From a virus, in the IMG/VR virus record IMGVR_UViG_3300022752_000326, positions 1 to 26,934 of that record: a stretch of 26,934 nucleotides of DNA; one strand, 5' to 3'. The translations under genes and the position numbers were made by a program. Shown one piece after another: positions 3,500 to 25,773 of the stretch. The first letter of the stretch is position 1, and every line of letters starts with the position of its first letter. The notes beneath the pieces are model-generated. The model was not told the DNA's origin. It saw only the letters and a list, made by a program, of their open reading frames with translations, and did not search any database.

Positions 3500-3933
3500 T
3501 GGCATATAATCCAGCTGATTACGAAGCTCGCAGGCGCGGGTATACGCAGCAGTATGCTGCGACTGGTGCGATGAATGCGTACGCTAATTTTCTTGCACAA
3601 CAACGTGGTAATCGTGAACGCCGAGGAATTACGGAACAGTATGAGAAAGCTCAACCGCAGGTTGTGGCTGGTTATTCTCGTCGTGGAATGGTTGGTCCTA
3701 ATGTTCGTTCTGGTTTGTTTGCGCGTGGTTTGCAAGATTTTGCAAAACAACGCGCTCGTACTTTTTCGGAGTTTGACCAAGGTTTACAGGAACAGCAACG
3801 AGCCTATGATTTGGGTGAGGCTCAACGTCTTGAGGCGTTTAGGAATCAGTTAGCGGATATGGAATCAGAGAAAGCACAAACTATTGCTGACGCTGCACGT
3901 CAGCTTTATGCACGTAGAGCAGGAGCAGTATAA
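3499..3933 (+). CDS. Helical virion-region protein, possible internal virion protein
   Basis: This is 144 residues, almost wholly alpha-helical and rich in Arg, Gln, Ala and Glu, with a Gly-rich turn near residues 58-72 (YSRRGMVGPNVRSGLFARG). Its place after nozzle and fibre-like genes and before the giant protein matches where podoviruses keep internal or ejected core proteins. The start is TAATG-coupled to the coiled-coil gene and the stop is TAATG-coupled to the next gene. The role is inferred from order only. Confidence 0.6.
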   Translation: MAYNPADYEARRRGYTQQYAATGAMNAYANFLAQQRGNRERRGITEQYEKAQPQVVAGYSRRGMVGPNVRSGLFARGLQDFAKQRARTFSEFDQGLQEQQRAYDLGEAQRLEAFRNQLADMESEKAQTIADAARQLYARRAGAV

Positions 3934-5189
3934 TGGCACACGTACCAGGACATAATGTTGAGCAAAGCGGAAATGTTTATGTTTGGAATCCTGCAGGTAA
4001 AGGTTTCAATCCAATTACAGGTATTAAGGACGATTTTCGTAATGTAACTAGTCAGATTCCAAGCAACAAAAGAACTAGAGCGCTTGCGATAACTGCTGAT
4101 GCTGCACCTGAGTTGTTTCCTAATTTAAGTGGACAAAATTCACAAAATCAATTTTATTTACAAGCGCTACAAGCATTGGCTGGTTATGGTTCTGGGTCTG
4201 GTTCTGGTTCTGGTGCATCCGACAAACTTGCTCGAGATAAATTTGAGTACGAAAAACGTCAAGATGCATTAGATAGGGCTGCTGCACTTGAGGCTTCAAA
4301 TTATGCTCGTGCGCGCGAAGGACGTGTTACTTCTGGTTTAGAAAATCTTTATGGTGGTGGTCAGGGAACTTTTAATCAGGGTTTTGACAAGTTGTTGAAC
4401 ATGATTGCTGAACAGGGTAAAGTTTCTCAACAGGGCGTAACAGACGCCTATGGTCGCGCAATGACGGGAATCAATGAAGGTTATGATGTCGCCTCTGGTT
4501 TGGGTCAAACTGGTTTTAATGCTTTAAATCAATATTTGCAAGCAAACCCTAATAATCCATACGCAGCTATGCGGGCGCAGGTTGGTACTGCGCCAGATGC
4601 TTTGAGCGATTATTTGAGTGCTTATGGTGTGTCTGATGTGCCTGTGCGTGGACAAATACAGGCAGACCAATTGCAAGCGCAACAGGGTGCCGCTAATTAT
4701 CAAAATCTAATTGATGTGTTGAGCGGTGTTGCTGAACAGGGTGCTGGTTCTCGTAGTGCAGAAGCCCAAATGGCGGAGTTGTTGTTTGGTACTGGTTTGG
4801 GTCAAGAGCGTGCTAGTTATCGTAGTCAGGCTGAGAACGCGCAAGCGCAGGCGCTTGCTGCGTTGCAGCAGGCTATGTTCCAGTCAAGGTTTGGTGTTGA
4901 AGGGGACCGTGCTGCTTACGCTCGCCAGTTGGCTGAGTCTGTTATTAACGCTGGTGGCAATCCAACTGCACCAACTGCACCAACTGCACCAACTGCACCA
5001 ACTGCACCAACTGCACCAACTGCACCAACTGCACCGCCATTTGTTAGCACGTCATATGATGTAAATAGACCAGTTGCGCCACCAATCAATCCATTGGTTG
5101 CCCAACAATTAGCAAATCTTCACGAGAATGTTCGTGGCCAAGATGCTCAAGAACTCCTCGACGCGCTTAACGCGCGACGAGGCAGGTAA
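3933..5189 (+). CDS. Putative internal virion protein with GS and PTA repeats
   Basis: The 418-residue protein has a Gly-Ser linker (about residues 85-95), a long Ala/Gln-rich helical middle (100-335), and a Pro-Thr-Ala repeat of eight identical 9-bp units near residues 344-367. The tail is Pro-rich then helical ([20 protein letters not shown]). Long helices with flexible linkers suit a protein that unfolds during ejection, but the function is not established. The start is TAATG-coupled. The stop lies 17 bases before the next GTG start. Confidence 0.6.
4962..5033 (+). repeat. Perfect 9-bp tandem repeat (8 copies) in coding sequence
   Basis: CCAACTGCA is repeated eight times without change, encoding (Pro-Thr-Ala)8, then degenerates to CCGCCA. 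The unit is a multiple of three, so copy-number change would keep the frame and only lengthen or shorten the linker. Lack of synonymous drift suggests recent slippage expansion. Confidence 0.95.
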
Positions 5190-6072: not shown

Positions 6073-9000
6073 ATGGCTAAACCGCCAATTAGTGAAGAAG
6101 ATTTCCTAAAAGCATTAGGTAAAATTTCTGGTAAAAAACAAACCCAAACCACTACAGGTGGTTTGGGTAAAAGCCCACTACAAAACTATTTTGAAACAAA
6201 AGACGCTGAAGCCGCAAAAGCGGCAGAAGCGTTAGGTGTTGCTGGCAAAATTCTTAAACCAGTTTTTAAAGCTGTTACCGTTCTTGACGCAGGAAAACGA
6301 GCAGCGGTTTCTGGTGTTAGAGAAATTGTGGATGTTTTGGATGCTGACCCAAACACAAATGCAAGTTGGTCAGATTTTATTAAACAATCAAAAGATGAAA
6401 CTTACGGTTTTGGCACAGCGTTCCCTATAAAAAATAAATGGGGCGGAAGAATTGTTGGGTTCATAGGCGATACCGTGCTAGACCCTTGGACATATGCAAC
6501 CCTTGGTGGTGCTGTGCCCGCCAAAGCGACAATGAAATCGATAATGTCGGGTGGCAAAATTATTTCTAAGGGTGGCAAAACAAGAGAAATATTGGGTGGC
6601 ATTAAATATGTGCATGGTCGCGAAGGGCGACTCGCCCTCGCGAACCTTGCAAAATCACGCATGGAAGCAATGGGCGAGGCAGGGATTAGAAACTTTACCA
6701 AAGATGAATTTGGTAAAGTTTTTAGAGATGTTGCTGCCAAAGGCAAAAAAGCACTTCCCGGATATTTGCGTGACGATTTGGGTATTCGTGGTCCTGGTAT
6801 TTATTATTTTGGTTCAAGAGTAAAACTTCCTGGTTCTGGTCCAGTTGGCGGTTTTTTAGAAAATTTGGTTACAGGCGCACGTTTAGGGCTTGTAAAAAAT
6901 CCTGTTGGTCAAAAAGTGATGAAGTATGTGACACCAGATGGAACATTTCAAGCAGCCTACATTGACAATCAATCCGTATTAAGAGACAGGGTTGCTTTGG
7001 CTTCTGGAACCCTAGAAAACGGAGACATCTTAACTCCGCAAGAAGCATTGAATGCTGGTGTGCGTTTGCGTATGGCGCAAAATCAACGCATAGCAACAGC
7101 CAAAAACGATGAGTATGTTACGCAAGAAGTTATCAGAGTTGTTAATGACCCCGATATGGAAGCAAATAGATTATCTCTTACTTCTGTTTTGGAACAAGAA
7201 GGCGGTATAGAAACTGCGGACAATGTTGTTGGTCCACTTGCCCAAAAAGTAAGAAACTTTTTGGACTCAAGACTTGGTGATGTTCAGCGAAAAGCAGACG
7301 AAGTTTCTGAAGAATACGGTGCACAATTTGCAAGAAAAAGAAATTATGTTCCGCACATGGAATCAGATGAAGCTGTTGTAGACAGACTAAAAATGGGTGA
7401 GGAAGCCTGGAAAGCAAGAACTGGTGGTGCCGCTATTGATGACAGCCACAGGTTTGCTTCTTCATACAGAAGAAGAAGTTTAGAGCCTGGAGATAACTTT
7501 TTTGGACACACCATAGAAAAAAGACCGTACACAATTGATGAATTGAATGATATGGCAAAAAATCCTGGGCCTCTTTTGAATGACGTAACAAAACAGCCAT
7601 TTGAACCATTGACTTATAATTTTTACGAAAATGACATGGTTAAAATTTTGCAGAAATATTCTCGGCACTTTGCACAGCAACAAGGATTTACTGAATATTT
7701 GCTAACAGCAAAACGAGAAGGTGGAGATTTTTTTAGAGTTCTTGCAAAAGACGCAGAAGCAGACCCGTTAATTGCAATTGATACTAGCAACGCTGTTGGT
7801 GAACTTACTTCTCGCGCCGTAACATCTGCTGGCAGGGTTGGTATTGAGGCAACAACTGACGTTGCTGTTCCTACACTTGCGACCATTGCGTCCGCCCCTG
7901 TTGTGTCCGAACTAGCAACGCCTTTGCCGGTTAGTCAAAATTTGGTAAATGCGATAGATGAATTTGGTTCAACGCTTAATGAATTAAACAATGTGTTTGA
8001 GGTTCCACCCAAAATGTTGTCAGACATTTTGGATGGATACGAAAAGGTAAGAGACAAACTTGTTAACAATTTGACAAAAGAAGGAATTGTTGCTGAAACA
8101 GTTTCTGGGGTGCAGGCGTTGGCTCGCGATTTACAAAGAATGGTTGAGATGGGGAATTATGTTCCCAAACGGTCAACTGTTGTTAATAGCGCTGAAGCCG
8201 GTACTCGTTTGGGATTTGACAACGTAATAGATAAAAAAACAATTAATTCCATTCAGGCATTAATAAAAAACTTGTCTATAGCTGATGCGGACACAATTGA
8301 TAAAACAATTGCGTTTGCACTTAAAGATGTTTTTAACAAAGTTGACAAACAGCTATTTGCTTCATCTGAAACAAAATTTGGAGTATTGCAGGCTTTTTAC
8401 GAGAAAACTAAAAGATTAAAAAATATAAGAAGGGTAAATCTTAAAAAACCAAATTTGTCTCGAGTCGAAATTGCTAAAAATGATTTGCGTTATGGTTTTG
8501 CTTTACAAGACATGCAAATTTTTGGAAACATAATTAAAGGAATTGACGAACGAATTAAACAGTATGTCCAATTTAATTTTGGTCCGTCTATTTTGAATCA
8601 AACCGAAATAGAAGATATTGCTGCTGAAGTAACTTTGTTGTATGTGTTTCAGACACAAAGAGAGTTGGACCGTGTTGCGAAGTTGCAAAATTTGCTTCAA
8701 AGAACAGTTACTGACGAAGGTGGTCTAGAGGAAGAAATTGCAATAATTAAAGGATTGATTCCAGATTTGGATTTGCCTTTGAACACGGAAGATGACCTTG
8801 CACAATTTATCCGCGTGTATCTTGGCGATGCTGTAAATGATGGTTTGTTGGAAACTCAACGCAAATTATTGAAACAAAGAGTTTTGGATTTGGAAGCTAA
8901 TTCTTTTTCTGGTGTTGCTGCCCAAACGGTTTTGGGTCGTGAACCCAAAACCGCTTTAGAGATAAGCAATGAAGTAATAAAGATTAAAAAGACCGTAAAC

Positions 9001-12000
9001 GTAAAAGCAACAAAGGTTAATACAGAAAGCCGCCGTGCAGCACAGCTAAAAAAGTATCCACAAAATGAACAAAAATTATTTAATGCACATTTGGAAAAAT
9101 TAGAAACAAGAAGAAAAGATATTATAAAACGTCAGGAAAAAATTCTTGCAAGACAAAGAGAAGTTAAAAGAATTCAAGTAGACGAAGAAAATGTTCGTAC
9201 TGGTATTTTTGCAAAGATACAAAAATACATTAATGAAACAAAACTAAAAGATTGGTTTCGTCCACAGCCAATTACGGCAACGGATGCAACTTTGTCAACA
9301 AGATTTAGAGATTTTTTCCTTGAGTCCATGCCGCAGGTTTTGGGCAAAAATAAAAGATATTCCAATCTTGATGACATAACGCAAAAGTTTGTTAATGAAA
9401 ACAACCTTGCCTTTGATGTGTTGGATATTCTTTTAACCAAAAATCCAAATGCAGTAATTGATGCCGTTGATTTTCAAACAGTATTAGATATTGCGTTTTC
9501 AAATTCAACAAGAGCTAAAACAGTTTTGGCTGAAAGTCGCAAAATTACTAAACGCGCAGATATAAAAAACTATGATGATTTAAAGAATTTTCTTTTTAGC
9601 GAAGCGGGCGCTTCACAAAGAACAAATGTATTAGTTGCCGATTATTTATTTGCGGCTTTAATAAATGATTTTGAGGATGTTGTAACTAAAATTTCCGAAT
9701 TGACCGTTAATGAACTACGTAGGGATGTACTAATTGCTAATAGGGCAATGATTTTGGCAGAAGAAGAAATAGAAAAATTAACAAATCAATTAAACAAATT
9801 GTTGCCAGATGAATATTTTGCAAGATTTCAAAACACTATATTGCCCGAACAATCAAGACAAGCCTTGGAGACGCCAACGGAAGTTCCGCTGGCTAATCGC
9901 ATCAATCCTGAAACTGGTGAAATTACTGGGCAACAAAATTTGGCTGCCAACAAACAAATGTTGTTGGAAGAAAATGATTTCTACCCACAAGCCAAGGCCG
10001 TTTTGAACCGTATGCAAAACTTGCAACAACTTGCCAATATTGATGGCAGCATGGTTGACTGGACTTTTGGGGGAAGAATACAGTTTTTATACAATAATCA
10101 ACCAATGTCATTTACGCCCCAAGAGTGGGATGCGTTCGTAAACCCACGCAATACCGCCTATGTTCCAAACGACAAAATACAGTACATTGTTTCGCGGCTA
10201 AAAGATGAAGATTTGCGTCGCATTGTTTTGGGTGATAATTACACCGACCAAACAATACCTGACGATGAGATGTTGCAAAAGTTTGTTTCATATGTTTCCA
10301 AAGAACAACCTGATGCTTTTGCTAGTGAACCAACTTTTCTTGCACGACAAGAAAAAATTGGTGAGGTTTGGAACAAATCAGATGCCAATAAATTCTTATT
10401 TGAACATACCAGAGTTAAGAATTTGGCTGCTGAGGAAGCAGCTAAAAGACAACCAAAGAATGTTGTTAGCGAATTGGACAGAGAAATTAAAGGTTTGGAT
10501 AATCAAATTGATTATTACACCACGGAAAGAGTTAGAACTCAAGAGTGGTGGGAAACTTATGGGGCTAGCGAAAGACCTTTGAATGCTGTTGAGTCTTTGC
10601 AACAACGAACAAACAGAATTAATAGATTAACTAATTTGGAATATAGCGACGTTTATCAGGGTTCGCAAAAAGAAATTCCTCAAGGTTTGAAAGCAAGACC
10701 AAGACCTGGTAGTCCCGATTATGACAGTTTAGTCATATTGGGTGTGCCCGAAAATATTTTAAATTCTCCAAATGTCAAAGTTTTGAATGACTGGTTGAGG
10801 GAGCATCCAGAAATTTTTAATTCAATTTTGGCTAATTTTAACGATATCCAAATCAGCGATTTGGATGAGTTTATTTTTATGACGCCCACAACTCGAGCAA
10901 TGCGCGATAAACAGGTTGAGGTTTTGAAAGCAATAAAAAGAAACGGTTTGGAAACTAACCGTACACGAAACAAGAGTATTAGCAAACTTATTAGGGATAA
11001 AGAAAGACTGTTTAGAACGCCCGAGGAAGATAAGGTTCTTGCTGACACAATCGCTAAACGAGCACAGCAGCGGGCAAGAATAGATGAAATTAAAAAGAAG
11101 CAGGTTGCTGCAAAAGCTGTTGACCAGCCAAAAGAAATACCACCGCCAGCAACGGCTGCATCAAGTTACAATCCTGACCTTCCGTACCATCAACAAGTAG
11201 CCAATGTTGAGCGACGAACATTGCAATCTGTGGCAGATTTACCACCTAAAAAAACAGAAACAATCAATCGTCTTGTTCAACAATTTGATTCACAATACGA
11301 TGAATTTGACAAGGCCGCACAAGCAGAGGCACTTAAAGAAGCTCAACGAACAAAAGGTGTAATAGCGTCTGATTCAACGGTTGTTGATTTTGATGCTATG
11401 GGAAGAATAAGAGATACCGAAAACATTTTGGCAAGTGTTAAAAAACGTGGAACTGCAACACCTGTGGAAGAAGTTCTTTTGGATGCAGGAACAAAAGAAG
11501 CCGAGGCAATGGTTGTTGCTTCCCGACTTCCGCAAACGGAAGTCGAGGCAAGACTAATGGATGGTTTGGTTTCCATGGCAAAACCAGCAACACGAACCGT
11601 TCCGTTTACTGCAAGAGAAACTGGCATTGCCGACATGATAACGGAAGGATGGAAACGTCTTGGTGCAAAGTTTGACGACATCCAAGTAAGTCCAGAGTTT
11701 TATGAACTCTGGAAAAACGCAAAATATTTTGAAGACCCAGCATTTGTGCGCCAAATGGCAAATCTTGTTGGTGGATACACAAAATTCCATAAAGCCTACG
11801 CAACGCTGACTCCAGGCTTTCATGTTAGAAACCTCATAGGTAACGTATTTCAATATGTGTTAGCCGGTGGTCAAATAGAGCACTACCGTCGCGCTACCGA
11901 AATATTTTTTGCATGGAATGAAGCATACAGCAAAGGTGTTTCGTGGAAAAAGTTTTTACAAACTTTGACACCAGAAGAACAAGTATTTGCAACCAAAGCC

Positions 12001-12753
12001 AGAACCGCAACGCTTGGTTCTGGTGGCGGTATTTATAGTGACTTGTTCCAAAGTCTTGTTCCGGGCAACAAATCTTACGATTGGGCACTTACTCGCGCAT
12101 CTCGTAATCTTGGTCAAAAATCAGACAACATGTCACGTTTTGTTCTTGGATATGACTCTGCCGTTCAGGGCATGAGCGTAGACATGACGATAGCAAGAAT
12201 TAAACGATTCTATTTTGATTACGAAGACCTATCCAAACTTGATAGAGCAATGAAGCAGTTTGTACCATTCTGGATTTGGACTTCACGAAACCTTCCACTA
12301 CAACTAGAAAACATGTGGCTTAATCCAAAGCCGTATCAAATATACAATTCTGTTGTACGCAACTTGCGAGACAAAGAAACCGAACAAGAACAACCATTAC
12401 CTATTTGGTTGCAACAAATTAACGCATTTAGAATTCCAGGATTGCCGCTTTATGCGGCACCTGACCTTGGCTTTACAAGAGTACAACAACAACTCGAGCA
12501 ATTGGCTATGCCCAAAAAGTTTGGTTCAAACCTTAACCCGTTGTTGAGGGTTCCAATTGAACAAACTTTGGGTCAAAACTTATTCAATGACGAAAAACTA
12601 GAATCACCGAGCGACAGAATAATAAACATTGTTCAGGGAAGTTTTGTGCCCGTTGCAACCACTGACCGTTTGTTGAATTCATACGGTGATGCTAAAATCA
12701 ATGCTTGGTTGGGATTCTTTGGTTCACCAATTAAAAAAATCAAAAAGGAATAA
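6073..12753 (+). CDS. Giant putative ejected virion protein (2226 aa, polyvalent type)
   Basis: The start has an AAGGG ribosome binding site. The protein takes about a quarter of the window. Near residues 120-160 there is a Gly-rich hydrophobic part (IVGFIGDTVLDPWTYATLGG). Around residue 420 the motif RKRNYVPHM resembles a recurring element of phage polyvalent proteins. Long coiled-coil stretches occupy the middle, for example near 1000-1070 (EKLETRRKDIIKRQEKILAR). Toward the C-terminus it reads FHVRNLIGNVFQYVLAGGQ and later KQFVPFWIWTSRNLPLQLEN, closely resembling the LPD38-like C-terminal segment of large polyvalent proteins injected with phage DNA. No transglycosylase, protease or polymerase motif was recognised by eye. 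T7 gp16-like ejection protein is the nearest functional analogue; the enzymatic content, if any, is unknown. Confidence 0.65.
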   Translation: MAKPPISEEDFLKALGKISGKKQTQTTTGGLGKSPLQNYFETKDAEAAKAAEALGVAGKILKPVFKAVTVLDAGKRAAVSGVREIVDVLDADPNTNASWSDFIKQSKDETYGFGTAFPIKNKWGGRIVGFIGDTVLDPWTYATLGGAVPAKATMKSIMSGGKIISKGGKTREILGGIKYVHGREGRLALANLAKSRMEAMGEAGIRNFTKDEFGKVFRDVAAKGKKALPGYLRDDLGIRGPGIYYFGSRVKLPGSGPVGGFLENLVTGARLGLVKNPVGQKVMKYVTPDGTFQAAYIDNQSVLRDRVALASGTLENGDILTPQEALNAGVRLRMAQNQRIATAKNDEYVTQEVIRVVNDPDMEANRLSLTSVLEQEGGIETADNVVGPLAQKVRNFLDSRLGDVQRKADEVSEEYGAQFARKRNYVPHMESDEAVVDRLKMGEEAWKARTGGAAIDDSHRFASSYRRRSLEPGDNFFGHTIEKRPYTIDELNDMAKNPGPLLNDVTKQPFEPLTYNFYENDMVKILQKYSRHFAQQQGFTEYLLTAKREGGDFFRVLAKDAEADPLIAIDTSNAVGELTSRAVTSAGRVGIEATTDVAVPTLATIASAPVVSELATPLPVSQNLVNAIDEFGSTLNELNNVFEVPPKMLSDILDGYEKVRDKLVNNLTKEGIVAETVSGVQALARDLQRMVEMGNYVPKRSTVVNSAEAGTRLGFDNVIDKKTINSIQALIKNLSIADADTIDKTIAFALKDVFNKVDKQLFASSETKFGVLQAFYEKTKRLKNIRRVNLKKPNLSRVEIAKNDLRYGFALQDMQIFGNIIKGIDERIKQYVQFNFGPSILNQTEIEDIAAEVTLLYVFQTQRELDRVAKLQNLLQRTVTDEGGLEEEIAIIKGLIPDLDLPLNTEDDLAQFIRVYLGDAVNDGLLETQRKLLKQRVLDLEANSFSGVAAQTVLGREPKTALEISNEVIKIKKTVNVKATKVNTESRRAAQLKKYPQNEQKLFNAHLEKLETRRKDIIKRQEKILARQREVKRIQVDEENVRTGIFAKIQKYINETKLKDWFRPQPITATDATLSTRFRDFFLESMPQVLGKNKRYSNLDDITQKFVNENNLAFDVLDILLTKNPNAVIDAVDFQTVLDIAFSNSTRAKTVLAESRKITKRADIKNYDDLKNFLFSEAGASQRTNVLVADYLFAALINDFEDVVTKISELTVNELRRDVLIANRAMILAEEEIEKLTNQLNKLLPDEYFARFQNTILPEQSRQALETPTEVPLANRINPETGEITGQQNLAANKQMLLEENDFYPQAKAVLNRMQNLQQLANIDGSMVDWTFGGRIQFLYNNQPMSFTPQEWDAFVNPRNTAYVPNDKIQYIVSRLKDEDLRRIVLGDNYTDQTIPDDEMLQKFVSYVSKEQPDAFASEPTFLARQEKIGEVWNKSDANKFLFEHTRVKNLAAEEAAKRQPKNVVSELDREIKGLDNQIDYYTTERVRTQEWWETYGASERPLNAVESLQQRTNRINRLTNLEYSDVYQGSQKEIPQGLKARPRPGSPDYDSLVILGVPENILNSPNVKVLNDWLREHPEIFNSILANFNDIQISDLDEFIFMTPTTRAMRDKQVEVLKAIKRNGLETNRTRNKSISKLIRDKERLFRTPEEDKVLADTIAKRAQQRARIDEIKKKQVAAKAVDQPKEIPPPATAASSYNPDLPYHQQVANVERRTLQSVADLPPKKTETINRLVQQFDSQYDEFDKAAQAEALKEAQRTKGVIASDSTVVDFDAMGRIRDTENILASVKKRGTATPVEEVLLDAGTKEAEAMVVASRLPQTEVEARLMDGLVSMAKPATRTVPFTARETGIADMITEGWKRLGAKFDDIQVSPEFYELWKNAKYFEDPAFVRQMANLVGGYTKFHKAYATLTPGFHVRNLIGNVFQYVLAGGQIEHYRRATEIFFAWNEAYSKGVSWKKFLQTLTPEEQVFATKARTATLGSGGGIYSDLFQSLVPGNKSYDWALTRASRNLGQKSDNMSRFVLGYDSAVQGMSVDMTIARIKRFYFDYEDLSKLDRAMKQFVPFWIWTSRNLPLQLENMWLNPKPYQIYNSVVRNLRDKETEQEQPLPIWLQQINAFRIPGLPLYAAPDLGFTRVQQQLEQLAMPKKFGSNLNPLLRVPIEQTLGQNLFNDEKLESPSDRIINIVQGSFVPVATTDRLLNSYGDAKINAWLGFFGSPIKKIKKE

Positions 12754-13982: not shown

Positions 13983-14145
13983 GTTTTTTCTTTTTGTTAT
14001 GAACGTATAAACAGTTGGTTTGTAAACCGTTTTCCAAAACTCCACGACCGATATCAATGGGTCCATAGTGTTTCTCTAAAATTGCCGCAATTTCAGATGC
14101 TGTGACAGGCATTTCAAATCCAATCACTAACTGACTCGTTCGCAT
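13972..14145 (-). CDS. Unknown small protein with strong ribosome binding site (57 aa)
   Basis: Translation from ATG 14145 gives MRTSQLVIGFEMPVTASEIA and on to a Lys-rich end (HNKKKKHVK). An AGGAG stands seven bases before the ATG, one of the best ribosome binding sites in this block. It overlaps the preceding gene by 32 bases and the following start by 11 bases, in line with the packing elsewhere. The ASEIAAILEKHYGP segment may form a small helix-turn-helix, but this is tentative. Confidence 0.65.
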   Translation of the reverse strand: MRTSQLVIGFEMPVTASEIAAILEKHYGPIDIGRGVLENGLQTNCLYVHNKKKKHVK

Positions 14146-14962
14146 AATTTTCTCCTAGTTCCAAATGAAATGTTTCGTCGTTAAGCATCAAAGCTATTAC
14201 ACAATAGCCCACTATGTCTCGTAGCGTATCAAGCAACGATTCATTTTGTGCTTTAGATTTTTTGGATTTAAGATTATTTAAACGCTCAATTTTGTCAGAC
14301 AAACGAACAAGAACACCCCTAAGGCCAAACGCAGTTATATTGCCATGACCATAATCATGTTGTTTTGATACGAGCAAAGAACACATTTGTCCAGAATCCC
14401 AAACACCACGTAAACGCAACTCCTGAATTGCCTCAATACCTATCTCTGTCCAAAGCAAAGATACCGGCAGGTCATCGTCATCGAATAAACATTTTTTTGC
14501 CGACTCACAGAGACGCATAAGTTTTGCATTGTTGGTTTCTGTTTCTTCTGTAGCAAACGACGCAATGTGCATAACCCATTGACTTGCCGATTGTTCCCAT
14601 GTGTCAACCACTCTGACCTTCTTTCTAATTAACGGGTGCATTGTTAGTAGCTGTTGTAGTTTAGCATAAGCATTGTTCTTGAGTCGCCAAGCATGAGGCT
14701 TGGAAACGCCGAGGCGTTTACCAAGCTGTTCATAGGAAAGAAATTCGCTGTTGACGGCGTTCACAATAAATTGGTCTTGCTCGTCAAGTTGCTCAATACA
14801 CATTGCTACTGCTTCGCGTAGCGGTTGTAGTTCTTCTACTGATTCTTCTATTGTGTCGGACACAGAAAGCATCAATGCTTCCATCGCCGTCTGTGGGCGC
14901 TGTTTATTTAGATAGGTTGATGAAAAGACGTAATTGTCTTGGGGTATGTCATTCTTTGACAT
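14114..14962 (-). CDS. Sigma region 4-like HTH fused to DUF1599/Nmad1 domain
   Basis: The start at 14962 (MSKNDIPQ) gives 282 residues and overlaps the upstream gene by 14 bases; an in-frame ATG at 14980 is possible, and neither has a clear ribosome binding site. Residues about 55-108 (LDEQDQFIVNAVN, then LSYEQLGKRLGVSKPHAWRL) match the sigma-70 region 4 / LuxR-like helix-turn-helix plan. Residues about 195-270 contain KQHDYGHGN, FGLRGVLVRLSDKIERL and DTLRDIVGYCVIALML, the recognisable core of DUF1599, also called nucleotide modification associated domain 1. The middle (110-190) is unassigned. A role in transcription and/or nucleotide metabolism is inferred; catalytic activity of the DUF1599 part is not established. 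Confidence 0.7.
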   Translation of the reverse strand: MSKNDIPQDNYVFSSTYLNKQRPQTAMEALMLSVSDTIEESVEELQPLREAVAMCIEQLDEQDQFIVNAVNSEFLSYEQLGKRLGVSKPHAWRLKNNAYAKLQQLLTMHPLIRKKVRVVDTWEQSASQWVMHIASFATEETETNNAKLMRLCESAKKCLFDDDDLPVSLLWTEIGIEAIQELRLRGVWDSGQMCSLLVSKQHDYGHGNITAFGLRGVLVRLSDKIERLNNLKSKKSKAQNESLLDTLRDIVGYCVIALMLNDETFHLELGENYANESVSDWI

Positions 14963-15377
14963 CGTCGTATGCGGGGTCATAGAGGAGTTGTGACACTTCC
15001 TCTGGCAACAACAAATAACCCTTCGCTGGATTATTTGTGCCTTCCGCAAACAACCTAATTCTTGACTTTGGTAACATTTTTATATAACGCTTTAATCTTT
15101 CTGTGGACACTACTATCATTGCTTGGTTCATAGTATACACATAGACCCACCACTCTGCCTCAGTTATCATAATTCCTGAGGGTTTCCAGCCATGTTTACG
15201 AGGGTTTTGGGCTATTTCAACCACCATTTTGCCGTTCCGATAGCGGTCAGATTTGACTTCAAACGAGCCATTAACAATTCCTTGTAGGAATTGTTTAACC
15301 TGGTCTTCACCTTGTTTGCCAAACTCTAAATCTTTTTTAAAGTTTGGCTTCGGAATATCCCATCTAGATTCTTTCAT
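14949..15377 (-). CDS. PD-(D/E)XK superfamily nuclease
   Basis: The 142-residue protein begins with a charged helix FGKQGEDQVKQFL, whose Glu24 is the usual helix-A acidic residue. It then has FEVKSD with Glu40-x-Lys42, followed by KMVVEI. This is the core of small resolvase-like or VRR-type PD-(D/E)XK endonucleases, which cut DNA with Mg2+. The start overlaps the RusA stop by three bases (ATGA type). A role in junction or branch cleavage during replication or packaging is likely by context. A single-domain host-DNA-degrading nuclease is an alternative. Confidence 0.7.
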   Translation of the reverse strand: MKESRWDIPKPNFKKDLEFGKQGEDQVKQFLQGIVNGSFEVKSDRYRNGKMVVEIAQNPRKHGWKPSGIMITEAEWWVYVYTMNQAMIVVSTERLKRYIKMLPKSRIRLFAEGTNNPAKGYLLLPEEVSQLLYDPAYDDVKE

Positions 15378-19586: not shown

Positions 19587-19898
19587 TTATTTTATGTTTC
19601 CATGTTTGTTCAGTTTTGATATGCCAGCAAAAGTAAATAATCTGCCACCCCATACGCCAACACAATCATGGGTTTTTGCAAAGTTGAAACACTCTGTTTT
19701 GACTTTGCACTCATTGCAGGTAAGGAATGCGCAATGCAAGTTAGAGCCTGGGGCTGCTGATATTCCACCCTTTTTATTTTCGGGGAAAAACCATTCGCTC
19801 GGACAGTTTGTGCAATTTGCATTTGCATAAATTACTTTTAATTCTTTTGTTATTTGTTCGTTGAGCAATTTTTTTTCTTTAGATGTTTTTGTTCCCAT
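19587..19898 (-). CDS. WhiB-like Fe-S transcriptional regulator
   Basis: The 103-residue protein has the WhiB pattern: Cys29 before EWFFPE, then Cys61-x2-Cys64-x5-Cys70 (CNECKVKTEC), then GVWGG (81-85), the family hallmark turn. The four cysteines would hold a [4Fe-4S] cluster and the protein would bind the host sigma factor region 4. The basic tail usual after GVWGG is short here. Phage WhiB proteins, such as that of mycobacteriophage TM4, can repress host whiB genes and alter septation; a similar role is inferred. GGAGG lies ten bases before the start. The protein class restricts the host to Actinobacteria. Confidence 0.9.
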   Translation of the reverse strand: MGTKTSKEKKLLNEQITKELKVIYANANCTNCPSEWFFPENKKGGISAAPGSNLHCAFLTCNECKVKTECFNFAKTHDCVGVWGGRLFTFAGISKLNKHGNIK

Positions 19899-21358: not shown

Positions 21359-21756
21359 CAAACATCACCTGCAATTCCATTGTTTTCTTGCATGAGCGTG
21401 GAAACACGCTCAACAGTTTCATTAATTAAACCAACAGTTGCAATATTTAAACCACGCTGAACCAATGTTTTGAAACGTTCATCGGACAACAAATGCGCAA
21501 CCAATTCTGTTTTGGCATGGTCAATGACACGACCATAATTCATCATGTTTGCGGCTTGATAGTTGATTGCTTCGTAATCAATACGAGATGTAATTTGTTG
21601 AATAAATTTTTCGGTTAATTTAGATTCAATCAACTCCGAAATTAGTTCACCATAACGCTCATCAAGTTTTTGTTGAATTTCACGAAACATACGATTGTAT
21701 GTTTCGACATCAACATCCAAGCGCAACACATCTTCCGTTACAAGTCTGATACTCAT
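21358..21756 (-). CDS. Unknown helical protein (132 aa)
   Basis: The start overlaps the upstream stop (ATGA) and has AAAGGA behind it. The sequence is almost wholly helical with alternating charges (YNRMFREIQQKLDERYGELI; TELVAHLLSDERFKTLVQRG), suggesting a coiled-coil or bundle protein that oligomerises. No catalytic motif is seen and no family is recognised. Confidence 0.7.
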   Translation of the reverse strand: MSIRLVTEDVLRLDVDVETYNRMFREIQQKLDERYGELISELIESKLTEKFIQQITSRIDYEAINYQAANMMNYGRVIDHAKTELVAHLLSDERFKTLVQRGLNIATVGLINETVERVSTLMQENNGIAGDV

Positions 21757-21899
21757 TTTTTACTGTTCCTTTCTTTTTCTTTAGCCAATAAAATTTCATA
21801 CTTAGTTATTTCGGCAAGAACTTTTTCCCAACCGAAATCTTTGCGTTTAACTTTTCTTTTCATTTTTTTACGACGCTTGTTGCTTAGATTTTGCTTCAT
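21753..21899 (-). CDS. Small strongly basic protein (48 aa)
   Basis: ATG 21899 lies behind AAGGGA inside the end of the amidotransferase gene and overlaps it by 32 bases. An in-frame ATG at 21863 is an alternative. The product MKQNLSNKRRKKMKRKVKRK followed by DFGWEKVLAEITKYEILL is a Lys/Arg cluster plus an amphipathic helix, like a small nucleic-acid-binding peptide. Longer in-frame versions are shadows of the amidotransferase gene. Confidence 0.55.
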   Translation of the reverse strand: MKQNLSNKRRKKMKRKVKRKDFGWEKVLAEITKYEILLAKEKERNSKK

Positions 21900-22908
21900 A
21901 AGAAATAGTCCCTTCTTTTTCATTCCAAACAATATATTTTTCACCATATTCATAATCATCCCAACACTCACAACTTTCCGTATTTGAACAATGAAAACAG
22001 CATAAACACTCACCACAATGAGTAGGGACAGGCTCCATGGCATCAACAAAATATTCAATGCCACAGTTATAACAAGTAATCCTTGCGTATTCCACATTAG
22101 AAAAATCTGTAAACACACAAATTTGTTCAAAAGCTTTTCCGGTTGGATACAACTCGTCTTCGATTAAATCTAATTCATCTTCTTGTGTCCAAGCAAAATC
22201 ATTATCTTCAGCCAAAGAACGCGGTTGCTTCACCCATTCATAATCATCGTCGTAGTCGTAATCGTCCCAACCACTTTTGTAGGGATTACCACCATACATA
22301 CCACGACTGCTTGAATAACTTGGATAACCCATAGGCGTTCGCATATAACTGAAAGCTTTATATGAACTATTAGACCACCAAACACCTGCATCCCAATGAC
22401 CTAAATTTTCATTGATGATGTACCAATCGCGTTCAACATCTTCTTCAACAGTCAAAATAACCATTTTGTTACCAGAAGCCCAACGACCAACATCATCAAA
22501 GAAATTTTTGTCATCCAAAGCTTTAACACCACCAATATGTGGCAACACAATTTCGGCAAACAGCTTTGTGTCCGAACGATGGTCATTGACTGGCATAGTT
22601 AAAGGCAACATGCCGTTGTGCGCCAAGACGCTACGCGGATTGTTGTCAACATCAAATGGATGACAGTTGCCCAAATCCGTATTGCCATGAGTGGCAATAC
22701 GGAAATGGAACAACGCAGCACCACGATATGTTTTACGCATATCAGACCAACGAAGCCACAATTTATCAAAATTCATATCATGGTCTTTGATAATTGCAAC
22801 ACCAGCATGAATAGCGAAACCAAAACCGTCAGGATTAGCTTTAGCAGCAGTTCTAGCTCGCTCATAATCCATATCAACATTGGGTGGCATAAAAGTTAAC
22901 AAACACAT
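21868..22908 (-). CDS. Class II glutamine amidotransferase with Cys-cluster tail
   Basis: From ATG 22908 the protein begins Met-Cys, so Cys2 becomes the N-terminal nucleophile of an Ntn-hydrolase (GAT-II) after Met removal. Supporting motifs are PDGFGFAI (26-33), ALFHFRIATHG (65-75) with Arg70, NCHPF (81-85), VLAHNGML (95-101) with Asn98-Gly99, and Asp113. These provide glutamine binding and ammonia release. Beyond about residue 175 is an extension with an acidic stretch (DDYDYDDDYEW, 215-225) and two Cys sets: Cys279/282/298/301 and Cys304/307/313/315, likely zinc ribbons. No synthase domain is attached. It follows the amidoligase gene by one base, so the released ammonia or the activity is probably used with that enzyme. 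Phage class II amidotransferase of unknown substrate. Confidence 0.8.
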   Translation of the reverse strand: MCLLTFMPPNVDMDYERARTAAKANPDGFGFAIHAGVAIIKDHDMNFDKLWLRWSDMRKTYRGAALFHFRIATHGNTDLGNCHPFDVDNNPRSVLAHNGMLPLTMPVNDHRSDTKLFAEIVLPHIGGVKALDDKNFFDDVGRWASGNKMVILTVEEDVERDWYIINENLGHWDAGVWWSNSSYKAFSYMRTPMGYPSYSSSRGMYGGNPYKSGWDDYDYDDDYEWVKQPRSLAEDNDFAWTQEDELDLIEDELYPTGKAFEQICVFTDFSNVEYARITCYNCGIEYFVDAMEPVPTHCGECLCCFHCSNTESCECWDDYEYGEKYIVWNEKEGTISYEAKSKQQAS

Positions 22909-22909
22909 A

Positions 22910-23983
22910 TCACTTACTTTCTTTCTGTTCAAGGACCTTACGCTTAATAACACGACTAATAAAAGTTGAATACCTGTCGCCCTGCGACATAGCAAAACGA
23001 ATTAAAGCATCAAACTTCAAACCGTCATGTTTCAGAATTTCATTAGAAGTAACTTGTTTGGTATACATAAACAAACACTCAACAAACTCCATGTATGCCA
23101 AAACCGTGTCAAAACGCAACGAAGGTCTGAAAATACGCAACTCGTGAGTATGTTCACCCATACGATTGACAGCAAGATTGCGTTCGTAAGGGTGCGGAAC
23201 ATAGTTGCCGTTTTTTTGAATACCTTTAACAATCTCAATTAGATTAGGTTTGTTAGGACCCCAAATGCTGTCTTGATTGTTGACAAAAGCATCATAATCA
23301 TATTTGGCATAAGAAGAATTACGACCAGCAAACCTAATTAGTTCAGCTTTGTTTTTGAACATGAAATACAAAAACTTCATTTGATGCTTAGCATCAACAA
23401 AAGAAACTTTTGAAATATGAATATGCAAACCACAAGTAGAAGTTTTCCAAGCATGATAACCGTTGTTGCGCAAATAATCCAACATTTCTTTATAGATGGT
23501 TATGTGCTTGAAATAATCCAAACTCATAGGATGAGAAACAATCTCAAAACCATGATTAATAGAACAATCTTCCTTTAGATAAACAAGTGGCGCAGTATTG
23601 TTGTTGATGAAACTAACAGCGTCATTTAAATAATTTTGACCAACATTTTCAACTTCCAACTCGATGCCAAAAACTGGTACATCTTTATTGATGTGTTCGC
23701 GAGACACATGAATATTACCGTCAACTATTGTGTAAAACCTTGGTGAAGGTTTGTAACTATAGCTGTTAATGCCATGGCGGTCATCATCGTTGTCTGAACT
23801 CCAATCATCACCGTCATAATCATTGTTTTCTTCGCACAACGAGTTATAACAATTTTCACAAACCCAATCGCCGTTATAGCGATTAGCGAATTCTGTTCGC
23901 TCAAATTCGTAATCACCACACGCTTCGCATTCGGTAATATTGTCAGCGAGCCGTGCGTCTTGTAACCGTAAAGTTCTAGGCAT
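22910..23983 (-). CDS. Amidoligase (COOH-NH2 ligase, glutamine synthetase-like fold)
   Basis: ATG 23983 behind AAAGGA gives 357 residues. The N-terminus has a C4 zinc ribbon (Cys19/22, Cys42/45, plus Cys50), then an acidic linker (about 51-69). The catalytic part shows FGIELEVE (105-112), EDCSINHGFEIVSHP (138-152), CGLHIHIS (184-191) with His187 and His189, and HTHELRIFRPSLRF (278-291) with Glu281 and Arg283. These are the signature elements of the Amidoligase_2 family, which joins an amine to a carboxylate using ATP. Natural substrates of phage members are generally unknown. The adjacent class II amidotransferase gene is a recurring partner of such ligases in comparative genomics. Peptide or protein tagging, or making a small amide metabolite, are the leading hypotheses. 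Confidence 0.85.
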   Translation of the reverse strand: MPRTLRLQDARLADNITECEACGDYEFERTEFANRYNGDWVCENCYNSLCEENNDYDGDDWSSDNDDDRHGINSYSYKPSPRFYTIVDGNIHVSREHINKDVPVFGIELEVENVGQNYLNDAVSFINNNTAPLVYLKEDCSINHGFEIVSHPMSLDYFKHITIYKEMLDYLRNNGYHAWKTSTCGLHIHISKVSFVDAKHQMKFLYFMFKNKAELIRFAGRNSSYAKYDYDAFVNNQDSIWGPNKPNLIEIVKGIQKNGNYVPHPYERNLAVNRMGEHTHELRIFRPSLRFDTVLAYMEFVECLFMYTKQVTSNEILKHDGLKFDALIRFAMSQGDRYSTFISRVIKRKVLEQKESK

Positions 23984-24027: not shown

Positions 24028-24064
24028 GTTTGCTTGCGCCCGCGAAGCGGGGGCGCAAGCAAAC
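24028..24064 (-). terminator. Long GC stem-loop upstream of the amidoligase gene
   Basis: A 14-bp perfect stem (GTTTGCTTGCGCCC at 24028-24041, GGGCGCAAGCAAAC at 24051-24064) encloses 9 bases. An alternative inner CCCGC-GAA-GCGGG pairing is possible. It lies between the small gene 24085-24231 and the amidoligase ribosome binding site. Without a T-run it may be a processing site or attenuator rather than a full terminator. Confidence 0.65.
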
Positions 24065-24877: not shown

Positions 24878-24920
24878 GAAACAATAACAAAGGGTCCGGT
24901 GGACCCTTTGTTATTGTTTC
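24878..24920 (-). terminator. 20-bp perfect stem-loop terminator
   Basis: The arms at 24878-24897 and 24901-24920 are perfectly complementary over 20 bp with a 3-base loop. The GC core GGGTCC/GGACCC is flanked by A/T-rich outer parts, so each side ends in a T-rich tract (TTTGTTATTGTTT). It stands 11 bases after the stop of the gene at 24932-25255, so it most likely terminates that transcript; by symmetry it could act on both strands. Confidence 0.8.
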
Positions 24921-25303: not shown

Positions 25304-25341
25304 GGGTTTCTTGCCCCACGCGAACGCGGGGGCAGAAACCC
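25304..25341 (-). terminator. Long stem-loop after the 121-aa gene
   Basis: GGGTTTCTTGCCCC (25304-25317) pairs with GGGGCAGAAACCC (25329-25341) with one bulged T, and the inside can form CGC-GCG closing a 4-base turn (UUCG on the minus strand). It begins 10 bases after the TAA/stop of the upstream gene. No T-run follows on the minus strand. Confidence 0.6.
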
Positions 25342-25737: not shown

Positions 25738-25773
25738 GTAAACGGTGCGCTCCCGAAGGGGCGCACCGTTTAC
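25738..25773 (-). terminator. 13-bp stem-loop with UUCG-type loop
   Basis: GTAAACGGTGCGC (25738-25750) and GCGCACCGTTTAC (25761-25773) are perfectly complementary. The inside pairs further as CCC-GAA-GGG, which on the minus strand is a C(UUCG)G tetraloop, a very stable fold. It follows the stop at 25778 by four bases. It probably ends or processes the transcript of the 100-residue gene. Confidence 0.7.

Follow-up and report, generated by a model that had tools for sequence, protein, structure and literature searches.

A zinc-ribbon amidoligase and a class II glutamine amidotransferase form an ordered gene pair in phages and on other mobile elements

The 26,934-nucleotide virus record analysed here (the window) carries two adjacent genes, encoding an amidoligase and a stand-alone class II glutamine amidotransferase (GAT-II), which in the viral relatives examined form an obligate, ordered two-gene unit (Table 1). 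We interpret the pair as a two-subunit glutamine-dependent amide synthase that would be made early and would act on a carboxylate acceptor, probably on the host side, to the benefit of the element carrying it; we put the probability of this reading at roughly 0.6. The pairing of such enzymes in phages is already known. What is added here is the obligate ordered unit with its zinc ribbons, and its presence also on non-viral mobile elements.

Table 1. Features of the window, and second amidoligase genes of related phage loci (positions refer to the window unless a locus is named)
Feature	Position	Strand	Basis or conservation
Sigma-70 region 4-like helix-turn-helix joined to DUF1599 (nucleotide-modification-associated)	14114-15049	-	Pfam
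WhiB protein	19587-19898	-	Pfam scan of window ORFs
Basic 36-aa ORF, 4 nt past the stop codon of GAT-II; overlaps the following gene	21753..21863	-	6/76 dereplicated loci
Stand-alone GAT-II (N-terminal nucleophile hydrolase), 346 aa	21868..22908	-	Pfam, model, conservation
GAT-II C-terminal zinc-ribbon cysteines C279, C282, C298, C301	22006..22074	-	63-66/70 phage relatives
Amidoligase, GS-like carboxylate-amine ligase fold, N-terminal zinc ribbon, 357 aa	22910..23983	-	Pfam, model, conservation
Ligase zinc-ribbon cysteines C19, C22, C42, C45	23849..23929	-	each kept in 68-70/70 relatives
Second amidoligase paralogue, locus L017	4508-5221
Second amidoligase paralogue, locus L097	3118-3954
Second amidoligase paralogue, locus L101	3062-3937
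Second amidoligase paralogue, locus L105	5563-6420
Second amidoligase paralogue, locus L116	5978-6607

The window is a 26.9-kb record, possibly incomplete, of a small freshwater-type phage. Among its ORFs scanned with Pfam, structural genes occupy the plus strand and early-type genes the minus strand, the latter including a DnaB-like helicase, an AEP-type primase, RusA and a PD-(D/E)XK nuclease. The pair, also on the minus strand, lies ahead of the helicase, primase and RusA genes, in agreement with the early region proposed by the original prediction, and it precedes the replication genes likewise in MEP402 and LUZ24. A likely actinobacteriophage had been proposed as well; the WhiB protein supports this, and from its gene content the host of the phage is likely actinobacterial.

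The ligase exhibits a score of 25.9 bits against Pfam Amidoligase_2 (cut-off 22) and contains all the motifs named in the original prediction, GIELEVE (106-112), GLHIHI (185-190) and ELRIF (281-285). Its structural model (pLDDT 84.5) is matched by Foldseek to YbdK, glutamine synthetase, gamma-glutamylmethylamide synthetase (GmaS), plant GCL and Dop, neighbours that fit an amidoligase. The top matches are all carboxylate-amine ligases with TM-scores of just 0.3-0.4, so that the fold supports the superfamily and no specific reaction or substrate can be read from it. Residues E108, E110, D139, S141, E147, G185, H187, R221, E281 and R283 are invariant in 70 relatives; by comparison with known enzymes, they are equivalent to the residues that bind metal and ATP in glutamine synthetase. 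The ligase presents the ExE, HxH and ExR catalytic motifs within a predicted GS/GCS-like fold. A search of solved structures by sequence found no relative. Of 80 cellular relatives, 79 show a ribbon-type cysteine pattern like that at the N terminus of the ligase, those of Ruminococcus giving a weak LIM-like match. In the sequences compared, the phiEco32 and LUZ24 ligases begin at the catalytic domain, without an N-terminal ribbon. In some phages a further amidoligase paralogue, shorter and without a zinc ribbon but with its motifs intact, is encoded upstream of the pair (Table 1).

GAT-II scores 25.5 bits against Pfam GATase_4 (cut-off 23); both proteins therefore lie above their family cut-offs, and the two enzyme assignments made earlier from the letters of the sequence are upheld. 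Met1-Cys2, FRIATHG and AHNG are all found. The model (pLDDT 83.5) adopts a GlmS-type fold, with 49 PDB matches at E<=0.001, the GlmS glutaminase domain coming first and GFAT, EgtC and PurF among the others. The residues invariant in 70 relatives (C2, R70, T73, H74, G75, H97, N98, G99, S112, D113) comprise, by the same kind of comparison, every part of the glutamine site known from class II amidotransferases. The cysteines of the C-terminal zinc ribbon, common among phage relatives, are found in 1 of 70 Ruminococcus-type relatives. In phage C75C1 (locus L007, 6001-6897) a GAT-II homologue and a C-terminal gamma-glutamylamine cyclotransferase domain are encoded by a single ORF.

The two genes are, as previously noted, one base apart (22909), the ligase stop codon occupying 22910-22912 and the GAT-II start 22906-22908. 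IMG/VR was searched independently with each protein, together with a deeper ligase search, and the loci used were the 80 best-scoring ones per search, out of about 414-418 relatives of the ligase and 165 of GAT-II. Among the matches listed, both genes are present in 158 of 160 viral loci, on the same strand in all 158, with the ligase first in 157 of them and a median gap of 3 bp. If the count is confined to distinct sequences that extend 400 nt or more on the side where the partner is expected, again among the matches listed, GAT-II lies directly downstream of the ligase in 122/122 cases and the ligase upstream of GAT-II in 67/67. An ordered pair in every testable viral relative examined indicates that the pairing is not due to chance, and these two counts much strengthen the idea, already present in the original prediction, that the enzymes act together. 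The distance matrices of the two proteins correlate with r = 0.85 (shuffled maximum 0.19), which shows their joint inheritance; matched distances also arise from the co-inheritance of adjacent genes. The sole exception met among phages is the C. difficile phage AR1086-1, where the ligase has no ribbon and no GAT-II is detectable; free ammonia or another amine may serve there. One locus (L235) exhibits at first sight a single ORF with both domains. A GGAGG precedes an in-frame ATG-TGT in it, so that internal initiation or a lost stop codon is likelier than a fusion, and it was not counted as one.

The pair is found in phages of different kinds (mycobacteriophage cluster S, ctgrD200, MEP402, C75C1) and, with the ligase first, on plasmids of Mycobacteroides abscessus and Mycobacterium paragordonae. 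The 80 cellular loci are nearly all from Ruminococcus and related Clostridia, and in 70 of them the ligase is followed by a GAT-II that is diverged yet intact. Neighbours in 37 dereplicated cellular loci include DUF960 (29), resolvase (15), relaxase (12) and integrase (12), which suggests that the Ruminococcus pairs reside on mobile elements. Ruminococcus-type strains carry several copies of the pair (L177-L256); R. flavefaciens FD-1 and YRD2003, for example, have four loci with the ligase apiece. The presence of the pair both on phages and on non-viral mobile elements makes a function solely in lysis or virion assembly unlikely.

One of the closest known parallels is mycobacteriophage Marvin (cluster S), whose gp105 and gp106 are an adjacent ligase and GAT-II in the same order and on the same strand, at one end of the genome, and whose ligase also has a cysteine-rich ribbon region. 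Marvin differs in its 65-kb genome and in sequence (about 30-36% identity to the window proteins), and its two proteins are annotated just as glutamine amidotransferase domain proteins. In the OM43 (Methylophilales) phages MEP401 and MEP402, an amidoligase (PF12224) and a GATase are likewise adjacent and precede the replication genes (PMC10580990); these phages, however, belong to the Zobellviridae, infect a Gram-negative host and have a ligase with a long N-terminal extension. The pairing was reported for the OM43 phages in that paper, which cites Iyer 2009 and the Marvin paper for earlier reports in phages. It has been reported for LUZ24-like phages too, and RIO1-like phages are described in PMC5498523 as carrying a "peptidoglycan modification cassette" with these enzyme types.

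The phiEco32/LUZ24 cassette resembles the window in having a homologous amidoligase immediately 5' of a homologous GAT-II, in an early region ahead of primase and helicase. It differs in that a PF14395 ligase, an ATP-grasp enzyme and a gamma-glutamyl cyclotransferase accompany the pair, and in that its GAT-II is much longer (510-676 aa, against 346 aa in the window). The PF14395 ligase was detected in both LUZ24 and phiEco32, used as positive controls, and in 0 of 51 related records, nor was it found in the window or its nearest relative. The ATP-grasp enzyme is not seen in the window (a 26.9-kb record that may be incomplete) and is found in two related records besides LUZ24 and phiEco32. The cyclotransferase is missing from 50 of the 51 related records, a search set that did not include the window, C75C1 being the exception; none is seen among the window ORFs scanned with Pfam, with the same reservation about completeness. 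Judged by gene content, the window pair appears to be a reduced form of the LUZ24/phiEco32 cassette. As the companions are missing from nearly all 51 records, explanations that need them lose support.

This bears directly on the possibility that the pair amidates, or modifies in some other way, the carboxylates of peptidoglycan stem peptides, altering the cell surface and excluding competing phages. The homologous enzymes inside the phiEco32/LUZ24 cassette favour it, as does a proposal that Iyer and colleagues made for phiEco32 and that was taken up again for OM43 and RIO1-like phages (PMC10580990, PMC5498523, PMC11318856); glutamine-dependent amidation of wall glutamate is known in Gram-positives from MurT/GatD (PMC3267633). 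Yet the wall-peptide pathway was built on the ATP-grasp enzyme, the COOH-NH2 ligase and the gamma-glutamyl cyclotransferase that nearly all records of this group lack, no domain or signal for binding wall peptides was seen, and the zinc ribbons are left unexplained. We regard a wall target as possible, on a tentative footing.

The search for other neighbours gave no further lead to a substrate. Neighbour clustering of 76 dereplicated viral loci revealed no third gene family accompanying the pair across lineages, so that the conserved third gene looked to by the original prediction as a substrate clue did not emerge. The next families after the pair are phage backbone genes, sigma region 4 (35/76 loci) and WhiB (33/76). 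No small ORF near the pair is shared across clades in these 76 loci, the 36-aa ORF 3' of GAT-II being conserved only near the window's own clade. The targets offered by the original prediction (a protein, a wall peptide or a small molecule) are conjectural.

A protein acceptor is about as likely as a wall peptide, and we hold it equally tentatively: the pair would act as a simple peptide-modifying system and amidate carboxylates, at side chains or at the C terminus, of a protein of the host or the phage, for instance one of transcription, translation or defence. Dop, a protein-modifying enzyme, is among the Foldseek neighbours of the ligase, but that match is weak. The zinc ribbons, given the weak LIM-like match of the Ruminococcus ligases, could bind a protein partner, and the early region together with the occurrence of the pair in both phages and integrating elements fits a host-takeover or anti-defence role, although no conserved substrate or tag gene stands beside the pair.

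The structural neighbours also suggest a part in gamma-glutamyl or amino-acid metabolism, with GAT-II as an EgtC-like gamma-glutamyl hydrolase and the ligase resembling glutamate-cysteine ligase, so that a gamma-glutamyl metabolite would be built by the two and trimmed again, or nitrogen metabolism supplied. YbdK (a weak glutamate-cysteine ligase) and plant GCL lie near the ligase model and EgtC near the GAT-II model; in C75C1, GAT-II shares its ORF with a cyclotransferase domain, and a role in nitrogen metabolism has been claimed for Phage-ZRK32 (PMC10945688). Against these points, none of the other 50 records has the cyclotransferase, and GAT-II carries the full glutaminase residue set including S112-D113. 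We consider such a role rather improbable.

A role in DNA hypermodification, in which the ligase would amidate a carboxyl group on phage DNA bases in the manner of CmoX/CmoY, has little support and is very improbable. Phage amide ligases acting on DNA do have a precedent in Synechococcus phage S-B43, and one of the clusters concerned contains a glutamine-hydrolysing domain (PMC12783734); the window itself encodes a DUF1599 protein. However, DUF1599 is found in just 28 of 54 related and comparison records and in none of Marvin, MEP402, LUZ24 and phiEco32. The window and 48 of 52 records lack C5-methyltransferase-type genes, and all records searched lack genes of the thymidylate-synthase type.

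For the two-subunit amide synthase that we favour, the following course may be proposed. After removal of the initiator methionine, Cys2 of the GAT-II subunit would hydrolyse glutamine, and the ammonia released would be handed to the amidoligase subunit, which, like glutamine synthetase, would use ATP and Mg2+ to activate a carboxylate and would convert it to an amide. Expression would come early, ahead of DNA replication. The acceptor would most probably be a carboxylate on the host side, in a cell-wall peptide or a protein, and its amidation would help the element to dominate or protect the cell. Against the two-subunit reading stands the fact that no substrate gene lies alongside the pair.

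Comparable divisions of labour exist in cellular systems. MurT-GatD of Staphylococcus aureus is also a two-gene system for the glutamine-dependent amidation of a carboxylate, but its folds are unrelated to those of the window pair (a Mur ligase and a class I GATase), so that the analogy is functional at most. In the GatCAB tRNA amidotransferase, a GS-related kinase subunit (GatB) is fed ammonia by a separate glutaminase; in contrast to the window pair, this glutaminase is an amidase-signature protein and not a GAT-II, and the target is tRNA.

A bolder interpretation, which we think unlikely, is that the zinc-ribbon pair constitutes a self-contained weapon of phages, plasmids and integrating elements, amidating a conserved host component and so disarming defence or locking out rivals. 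A search of the open literature found no biochemical example of such a covalent modification, nor any biochemical assay of the amidoligases that have been annotated in phages for more than 15 years. The strict two-gene unit implies that the minimal system consists of two proteins, small enough for direct expression and assay, and cultured carriers of the pair exist in Marvin and MEP402.

Some other features of the window may be recorded. A single ORF of 2226 aa in the structural region (6073-12753, plus strand) takes up about a quarter of the record; the ORF before it (3933-5189) contains a PTA tripeptide repeat. No RNA families were found in the window, and around the pair the patterns expected of promoters and terminators are no commoner than in shuffled sequences. 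Four long stem-loops with arms of 16-20 bp (24028-24064, 24878-24920, 25304-25341 and 25738-25773) lie between minus-strand early genes upstream of the ligase, and two relatives (L012 and L009) exhibit stem-loops of partly different sequence at similar intergenic spots.
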